NCBI GenBank assembly: GCA_022565805.1
Contig: JAIULZ010000008.1
Location: 1 to 54,384 of the forward strand
Length of the DNA: 54,384 nt
Direction: 5' to 3'
From: Balneolales bacterium
GTDB taxonomy: Bacteria; Bacteroidota; Rhodothermia; Balneolales; Cyclonatronaceae
Made by a program: the position numbers and the translations under genes. The notes below the pieces were generated by a model. The model did not search any database, was not told the DNA's origin, and saw nothing but the letters and a program-made list of their open reading frames with translations. Shown piece after piece: positions 2,644-4,549 of the stretch (position 1 is the first letter of the stretch; each line of letters starts with the position of its first letter).

Positions 2644-3690
2644 TCATTTACTGGCAGAATGCAGAACTTTTTTCTCCATACGAAGTTCTGCTTCTGCCAG
2701 TTCTCTGGGAGTCCATTTTCGCTCTTTCACGCGGTCGATTACAACAGATATACTCTCCGACAATATATCTGCGACCTGAAGATTCAGAAGCCTTGCCTCC
2801 GGGGTTTCTTTAGGGTCTTCTGCGATCAATAAATCCGACAGATCCTCAATAAAAGCTTTATTATTCGGCGAACTTAAGTCGCGTATTATACCGTGCACTA
2901 CGCCAAAAACGATGTCTTTAATAGCATCTTCAATTTGCCGGGTTATCAGCCTTCCCATAACTGGCAAAACCTCCAGACTTCGTAGCTCCTTATTCTTTTC
3001 TACGGCATCGTTTATTTTTTGATGAACATATGCTTTTATTTCATCTTCGTGCACAGCATACCCCGCAGACACTGCATGCTGCAACCTTGCCGAAACCCAT
3101 TGTGTTAGCTCAGCCTGTCTTGGTCTTAGAACTTCGTCTACAATACGGTCTATAACAGGGGTTCCGTCTTCGAGCTCTTCACGCACATTCGAAAGTATAG
3201 TAAGAGTTACCCTATCTGTTACTTCCTGAATAAACAGGTTGAAATAATGCATTATAAAACGATAAAGGCCAAAGTTTTCAAGTACAAGCCACCCTATTCT
3301 CTGAAGTCTGACAATTATCGTTACAATACGTAGCAACCTCAGAAAACGGAAGCCTCCTATGGGTATACAGCCTACCAAATCGTACCAATACACAAATGGA
3401 TAATAGTACCACTTTGCAAATTCTTTATTTCGTAAAGAAATGATCCACCTTACAAAAAACTCGGTCAAAAAAATTAGTATAAATGCCAGATCATAAAGAA
3501 TAAAATCGGCATGAATAGTTGAATCATAAAACTCATAGAAAACAGGTGAAATATTAAAAACCAGATCCCTGAACAGCTGGCTATGAAAAAGCCAGTCGAA
3601 AAGAATAAGACCAAGGTTTATAAGAAGTAAACCAAGCATAACGAGATCTCCCGCTATATAGCTTACTTTTTTTCGTTTTATATCAGCCAT
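2644..3690 (-). CDS. Stand-alone voltage-sensor-like membrane protein with a long helical tail
   Basis: The 348-residue protein has four predicted membrane segments at about 12-34, 63-86, 94-112 and 113-136. They follow the S1-S4 plan of voltage-gated cation channels. S2 carries Glu77 and Arg81, S3 carries Asp104 in YWYDLVGCIP, and S4 has arginines at 115, 118, 121, 128 and 131. The pore module expected next (S5, selectivity filter such as GYG, S6) is absent. Residues about 150-348 are instead a soluble, mostly helical, charged region. It is therefore not an ordinary potassium channel. It could be a voltage- or lipid-sensing protein, a proton pathway like Hv1, or an accessory subunit. Its start overlaps the end of the AbiEi-like gene by 8 bases, so the two are very likely cotranscribed and translationally coupled. 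The function is unknown. Confidence 0.75.
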   Translation of the reverse strand: MADIKRKKVSYIAGDLVMLGLLLINLGLILFDWLFHSQLFRDLVFNISPVFYEFYDSTIHADFILYDLAFILIFLTEFFVRWIISLRNKEFAKWYYYPFVYWYDLVGCIPIGGFRFLRLLRIVTIIVRLQRIGWLVLENFGLYRFIMHYFNLFIQEVTDRVTLTILSNVREELEDGTPVIDRIVDEVLRPRQAELTQWVSARLQHAVSAGYAVHEDEIKAYVHQKINDAVEKNKELRSLEVLPVMGRLITRQIEDAIKDIVFGVVHGIIRDLSSPNNKAFIEDLSDLLIAEDPKETPEARLLNLQVADILSESISVVIDRVKERKWTPRELAEAELRMEKKVLHSASK

Positions 3691-4450
3691 TATCTGTAGG
3701 TTTCCGGGTTTTTTCCAGGTTAATATTCAAACTGCGTAAAAAAGCTTCCACCTCTTTTATACAGCCTCTCCTCGATGCATAGCGTTGTAGTGAGCTATGA
3801 TTTATAATATTATTTTCAAAAGCCAGCTTAATGAAGTTTCGGGTCGGGTTTCCAACCATTTCCTTAAGATAAAGCTCCCCGGCCTGCAGGTCTACTATCA
3901 GCTTTTCTAATGACGGGATGGTGTGATTACCGATTTTTTCAAGTGGTGCTTCAGAAATAAGCGGAGAGACAAGTACTGGCTTTTCGTGCATGCTGGCGTA
4001 TCTCCTCAGAATAATTTCATCCGGATTAAGAAACACATCTTTCCTCCACCGGCAAAGTAAAGAAAACACGGTTTCTGTGGCTTCTTTGTCGACCTCTGCT
4101 AACAGATAAGGATTAGTTGTGTTTATTTCTAAAAGCCTGAAAAGCCTCGATGTATCCCATACTGCTGTATTAATATGCGGTAATTCTTCAGTAAGTTTTT
4201 GCTGTAGGGTGATGGCTTCATCAGTAGAAAGTTGTTGTAGCCATGGGCGCCCCCCAACTACAAAAATGCCGCGCTTTTTACTTGAAATAATGCCTTTTTG
4301 CTTAAGCGCGAAAATACGCGCAAGCAACGTATTTTTATTGAGATCCGGCTCACCCATCGAATCATAAAAAAAAGCTAAATCAGCAGCATTAAATTCTTTC
4401 CCATCGCTGAAATACGCCTTCAATTCTTCTGGCCTCAGTTTAGCACTCAT
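3683..4450 (-). CDS. AbiEi-like winged-helix protein (type IV antitoxin-related, DUF6577-like)
   Basis: The 255-residue protein starts with a winged-helix-like segment (about residues 1-70, including LARIFALKQKGIISSKKRG and the wing-like GIFVVGG). This is how AbiEi antitoxin-family proteins begin. The middle carries a segment around IPSLEKLIVDLQAG, resembling the conserved EKLLVDL stretch of AbiEi C-terminal domains. In classical AbiE loci the next gene is the AbiEii nucleotidyltransferase toxin. Here it is the pore-less voltage-sensor protein, overlapping by 8 bases. The pair lies 99 bases downstream of the NUDIX gene on the same strand. The family assignment is by eye, and a plain transcription regulator is an alternative reading. 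Confidence 0.55.
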   Translation of the reverse strand: MSAKLRPEELKAYFSDGKEFNAADLAFFYDSMGEPDLNKNTLLARIFALKQKGIISSKKRGIFVVGGRPWLQQLSTDEAITLQQKLTEELPHINTAVWDTSRLFRLLEINTTNPYLLAEVDKEATETVFSLLCRWRKDVFLNPDEIILRRYASMHEKPVLVSPLISEAPLEKIGNHTIPSLEKLIVDLQAGELYLKEMVGNPTRNFIKLAFENNIINHSSLQRYASRRGCIKEVEAFLRSLNINLEKTRKPTDNG

Positions 4451-4549
4451 GAGTTCTCGGTTTGAAATATAATATGTTTCTTAGATATATGGGTGTTTTA
4501 ACAATAAACAATAACGGCAAAATTTATAATATTTGCCATTTATTTATAA

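Follow-up and report, generated by a model that had tools for sequence, protein, structure and literature searches.

Voltage-sensor domains (VSDs) of ion channels, as seen in the NavAb and Kv structures, carry the motif N(x6)D/E in the S1 helix and the motif F-x-x-E in S2. In the voltage-sensing phosphatase Ci-VSP, the VSD has no pore and is followed by a conserved cytoplasmic domain. Pore-less voltage sensors were thought to be restricted to eukaryotes, and bacteria are not known, to us, to have a dedicated voltage-sensing protein that is not a channel. On the basis of database searches, a review of proton channels from 2023 stated that every known prokaryotic VSD is accompanied by a pore (PMC10377628). 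In open-access papers, we came across no VSD from bacteria that lacks a pore, and likewise nothing on the Acinetobacter gene discussed below.

The membrane protein described here resembles the compact-turn bacterial Kv channels (KvAP-like, PF00520 Ion_trans) in its S2 acid, its S3 aspartate, its S4 arginines at i+3 and the spacing of 11–12 residues between the aspartate and the first arginine. Unlike these channels, it is predicted to have a soluble helical domain of 210 residues in place of S5, filter and S6, and it lacks GYGD. The likeness to Ci-VSP, a pore-less VSD with a conserved cytoplasmic domain, is one of architecture only: the present protein is bacterial, its cytoplasmic domain is predicted to be all-helical, and no match to a PTEN-type phosphatase domain was found among the Pfam and NCBIfam phosphatase models. 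With Hv1 it shares a pore-less VSD and a helical C-terminus, whereas its conserved C-terminal domain is far larger and, at the corresponding position by spacing, S1 has N and not D. The locus is similar to the AbiE type IV toxin–antitoxin system (AbiEi/AbiEii) in having an AbiEi-type winged-helix gene upstream and an operator-like motif; it differs in that AbiEi has no AbiEii partner, the downstream gene codes for a membrane protein and the AbiEi belongs to a solitary clade. VSDs and pore-less VSD proteins are already known kinds of protein; a family of them from bacteria, with this cytoplasmic domain and no pore, is a new form.

Two overlapping genes and their local linkage

The window, a stretch of 54 384 nucleotides, is a contig of a Balneolia-type member of the Bacteroidota. 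Its named relatives are Balneolia metagenome-assembled genomes (MAGs), several with sediment-type isolate names, and the host may be an inhabitant of soda lakes. The features of the locus are listed in table 1. Both reading frames lie on the minus strand where the sequence-only reading of this DNA had placed them, with the overlap that it reported. Its assignment of the upstream gene to a winged-helix AbiEi-like protein was borne out by Pfam (DUF6577, 1.5e-48) and PADLOC (AbiEi, 3.5e-54). Profile searches, proposed for both proteins, left the membrane protein with no family in Pfam, NCBIfam or PDB. The surrounding genes (Nudix, nucleoside phosphorylase, RadC-like, ArgS-like and methyltransferase) are housekeeping genes. 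No defence island was found around the pair among the annotated neighbours in the window, the PADLOC matches there reflecting generic methyltransferase or Nudix similarity.

Table 1. Features of the locus (window positions unless a locus label, L, is given) and small genes adjoining the VSD gene in other Balneolia.
Feature	Position	Strand	Details
AbiEi-type gene (DUF6577), solitary	3683..4450	-	255 aa; Pfam and PADLOC matches, tree
Gene of the predicted pore-less VSD membrane protein	2644..3690	-	348 aa; family alignments
Reading-frame overlap ATGGCTGA, 8 bases	3683..3690	-	common to the AbiEi and membrane-protein ORFs
Inverted repeat GGCAAA-N10-TTTGCC, AbiEi leader	4516..4537	.	candidate operator; sole such match in 54 kb
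S1, aa 10-35	3586..3663	-	N25 in 97/102 (D in one), D32 in 94/102; AF2 helix 2-35; hydropathy
S2, aa 63-88	3427..3504	-	F74-x-x-E77 charge-transfer motif, then R81 W82; AF2 helix 63-88
S3, short, aa 94-110	3361..3411	-	WYD(104)...P110; AF2 helices 96-100 and 102-106
S4, aa 112-132	3295..3357	-	R115/R118/R121 at i+3 spacing, then R128; AF2 helix 112-132
Cytoplasmic helical domain, aa 136-348, replacing S5-filter-S6	2647..3285	-	hydropathy, AF2, alignment
Beta-barrel-like genes	L029 8425-8922; L030 6648-7118; L034 10219-10869; L041 8703-9233; L045 4334-4849	varying	adjoin the VSD gene

In all five genomes of the window's genus that hold both genes, AbiEi and the VSD gene are direct neighbours and point in the same direction. 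One small gene comes between them in G008 and G009, which represent two sister genera; in another genus (G007, G010) they are unlinked. In the next family, 16 genomes have the VSD gene; AbiEi of this type is present in one of them, elsewhere in the genome and beside an AbiEii-cluster gene. Among 80 named loci, AbiEi lies within 7 kb of the VSD gene in three, all from Balneolia, and near none of the other 77. The comparison of gene neighbourhoods, which was to reveal whether the pair is conserved, therefore confines the linkage to the window's own bacterial family.

As the sequence-only reading had remarked, the partner of this AbiEi is not a nucleotidyltransferase: there is no AbiEii adjacent to it, nor any AbiEii match in the genomes G001, G009 (88% complete) and G010. 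In a midpoint-rooted tree of 12 sequences, the AbiEi of this locus falls in a clade apart from the AbiEii-linked paralogues (support 93/91). The motif GGCAAWA is present in eight of the 10 leaders of this AbiEi group, against 0.42 expected from first-order shuffles (500 rounds, maximum 3). The leader of the AbiEii-linked AbiEi of genome G012 (DUF6577; L052, upstream of 5934) contains a perfect palindrome, CGGCAATA-N8-TATTGCCG, which is probably the operator of this AbiEi subfamily. Inverted-repeat binding and autorepression are known for AbiEi proteins (PMC3985639). The simplest and most likely reading is that AbiEi is a solitary autorepressor of the two-gene operon, acting via a putative GGCAAWA operator. 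No perfect GGCAA...TTGCC repeat was seen by eye upstream of the unlinked VSD genes (G007, G010), so that control of an unlinked gene by AbiEi is unsupported. The AbiEi–VSD pairing is a minor local feature, probably regulatory.

In genome G005, an Abi_2-like gene (PF07751, sub-threshold; L027 7197-7883) adjoins the VSD gene; it is absent from this position in sister genomes.

A voltage-sensor domain without a pore

Conservation in the membrane protein was assessed on an alignment of 102 diverse homologues. The acidic residues E77 and D104 and the arginines R115, R118, R121, R128 and R131 are found exactly where they had been read. Eight positions (F70, W82, P98, Y103, G107, P110, R118 and R121) are invariant. 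Position 74 is F or Y in 100 homologues and position 77 is E or D in all of them; D104 is replaced by E in two and is D in the other 100, and R115 is retained in 96. The family thus has the S2 aromatic-x-x-acid, the S3 acid, the spaced S4 arginines and the channel-VSD homology by which a VSD is recognized. In the bundle, the S4 arginines would face the acidic E77 and D104.

The homology is with Kv channels. In hhalign comparisons, the family matched nine independently fetched Kv channels (PF00520) with a probability of 93.5% and the compact-turn Kv channels (TVGYGD) with a probability of 97.5%; a control set of 20 multi-TM families, unrelated but drawn from the same neighbourhoods, stayed at or below 0.5%. 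When whole genomes were searched with the family profile, the matches next after the members were genuine TVGYGD Kv channels. One of these, L145, is KvAP-like in a PDB search, and a compact S3–S4 turn like that of the family is present in two real channels, L145 and L159. Weak Pfam matches occur among the members, the commonest being Ion_trans (16/102). Profile comparison detected no homology to NavBac-type channels. Homology and hallmark residues together show that the S1–S4 region is, at the level of sequence, a Kv-type VSD.

Hydropathy shows four hydrophobic segments in the protein. After S4, no segment exceeds the threshold in any of the 102 members (19-residue windows, Kyte–Doolittle 1.6), and the K+ filter motif is absent from all of them; the members lack the S5, filter and S6 that characterize voltage-gated ion channels (PF00520). 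The AlphaFold2 (AF2) model based on the 102-sequence alignment (pLDDT 91.2, pTM 0.64) is all-helical. It contains helices 2–35, 63–88, 96–106 (broken) and 112–132, of the size of S1–S4, followed by a long soluble helical stretch (141–347), and no complete pore; it supersedes an earlier, poor model from 27 close sequences (pLDDT 54.8). The absence of a pore from the predicted protein, with a helical tail in its place, is thereby shown, as had been proposed from the letters. Foldseek searches with the whole AF2 model gave no match at E ≤ 0.001 among PDB and viral structures; the VSD assignment therefore rests on homology in sequence, the fold being unconfirmed by structure comparison.

The cytoplasmic domain has its own near-invariant residues among the 102 homologues (Y149, E156, D159, E172, P243, V321 and W326). 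Since this domain is conserved across phyla, it has a function of its own. PDB profile matches to V-ATPase subunit H, Pumilio and designed helical repeats were weak, inconsistent and limited to the C-terminal helices, and were set aside as helical background. In two shorter proteins (L157 1309-2094, 261 aa; L189 1246-2085, 279 aa), the VSD is kept and the cytoplasmic domain is partial; they are suited to work on a minimal domain.

Distribution of the family and genomic context

A plain single-protein scan of genome contigs found no relatives, and the family was recovered with an alignment query alone: a pattern scan of GTDB genomes with this query yielded at least 515 related loci. There are full-length members in Bacteroidota, Pseudomonadota, Calditrichota and Spirochaetota, and the identity between phyla is 36–42% across about 320 residues. 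By alignment, this conservation of the membrane protein is far beyond chance. The gene was found in 25 of 60 genomes comprising the window's own and its relatives, and it is kept, in the manner of a core gene, in most genomes of two families.

Profile searches gave full-length members in 10 of 249 genomes of Pseudomonadota (about 4%), plus one short variant. The gene was also detected in five of 40 genomes from the phylum to which a Calditrichota MAG belongs, in 23 of 198 (about 12%) from that of a Spirochaetaceae MAG, where one extra match is a Kv channel, and in 20 of 177 from the order containing a Cytophagales MAG; the phyla are named here after the record titles of the central genomes. 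For the order of Marinobacter, a search of 175 genomes gave 37 matches, most of them family members. In spirochaete-type genomes, up to several diverged copies, of about 440–580 aa, occur per genome (loci L163, L164, L166, L184, L185 and L186), and many of these copies have an extracytoplasmic insert of roughly 120–250 residues between S1 and S2.

The neighbourhood search found no operon partner common to all phyla, and the partners are lineage-specific. In one Balneolia family, the QueG gene lies side by side with the VSD gene. A small outer-membrane beta-barrel-like gene adjoins it in five Balneolia genomes from two families (table 1).

In Acinetobacter baumannii, the homologue (L270 5821-6867; CP040048.1 404189-405235) has an acyltransferase gene upstream of it and is itself directly upstream of minC-minD-minE. 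It is labelled 'preprotein translocase subunit SecA' in QCP21999.1 and 'hypothetical protein' in WP_001181648.1; the SecA label is evidently wrong. A1S_0883 of strain ATCC 17978 is listed among the LPAAT paralogues, and the neighbouring tags suggest that it is the acyltransferase gene beside the VSD gene. The same gene order, acyltransferase-VSD-minC-minD-minE, is present in another three genomes, probably of Moraxellaceae (G930, G954 and G408; loci L287, L288 and L289). Their VSD proteins are 37–38% identical to the Acinetobacter protein, against 76% for MinD. The min linkage is limited to Acinetobacter and these three genomes, and the other lineages share no neighbour. OmpA, encoded near minCDE, was considered as a counterpart of the small Balneolia barrel and ruled out as not homologous. 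Membrane potential determines the localization of MinD (PMC4829611). Limited to four genomes, the minCDE neighbourhood is the best hint to a function.

Possible functions of the membrane protein

The explanation that we favour is a Kv-type, pore-less VSD acting as a membrane-potential transducer, encoded behind an autoregulating solitary AbiEi; we put the chances of this whole explanation at about even. The S1–S4 bundle would sit in the inner membrane, where a change in membrane potential would cause S4 to move or to re-register. The motion would pass through the S4 extension (aa 132–175) to the conserved cytoplasmic helical domain, which would then bind or release a membrane-associated partner. 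As S4 motion would be passed to a partner-binding cytoplasmic domain, the protein would be a transducer and not an ion conductor. S3 and the S3–S4 turn are very short, so that S4 may travel little or not at all.

Alternatively, S1–S4 might be a voltage-insensitive anchor for a cytoplasmic scaffold, its arginines forming structural salt bridges, as a frozen VSD of the kind known from many TRP-type channels. The short S3 and S3–S4 turn leave this as a serious rival, which we rate as rather unlikely. It would also account for the regular S4 arginines numbering only three and for the conserved W82, P98, Y103, G107 and P110, which suggest a rigid bundle. However, nearly all 102 homologues retain the gating-charge arginines together with the F-x-x-E/D charge-transfer residues, whereas those of a mere anchor would be expected to drift, and the channels L145 and L159 have the same compact turn. 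A prokaryotic Hv1-like channel, with a proton-conducting VSD dimerized by the C-terminal helices, would have the same layout of S1–S4 and helical C-terminus, and many of the hosts come, to judge by the titles of their records, from saline or soda-lake habitats. Proton conduction is nevertheless made less likely by N25 (97/102), which stands, by spacing, where the S1 selectivity aspartate of Hv1 would be expected. Moreover, the cytoplasmic domain of about 210 residues is highly conserved and is no simple coiled coil, and no prokaryotic Hv has been reported (PMC10377628); we regard such a channel as improbable.

Equally improbable is a role as accessory subunit to one of the cell's own Kv channels. 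The host genome does have separate Nav/Kv-type channels, but no channel gene was noticed beside the VSD gene in the annotated neighbourhoods, and two carrier genomes (G001, G181) have no PF00520 match. The least probable alternative is an AbiE-like toxin–antitoxin or anti-phage module with the membrane protein as a potential-sensing toxin, close to the stress, toxin–antitoxin or anti-phage pair that the sequence-only reading had suggested. The AbiEi identity, the co-direction and the overlap of the genes are in its favour. It fails because the linkage is confined to one family, the neighbours are housekeeping genes and no AbiEii is adjacent; in addition, nearly all genomes with the membrane protein, hundreds in number, are free of AbiEi, and its retention resembles that of a core gene. 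The gene pair is not a toxin–antitoxin system.

Our transducer reading, extended to all members, would make them a widespread family of bacterial voltage sensors without a pore, which pass the membrane potential on to a cytoplasmic domain and are tied to minCDE in the Acinetobacter lineage, a claim we hold tentatively, at a little less than even. The family, which has gone unnoticed for want of a Pfam or NCBIfam model and under the SecA and hypothetical labels in A. baumannii, contradicts, across at least four phyla, the statement that all prokaryotic VSDs have a pore (PMC10377628). If the reading is true, the family would be the first equivalent, in prokaryotes, of the pore-less voltage sensors of eukaryotes, and a candidate means by which bacteria monitor their own membrane potential. 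This potential governs MinD localization (PMC4829611) and affects division, and the minCDE-adjacent member of Acinetobacter makes the question directly testable.
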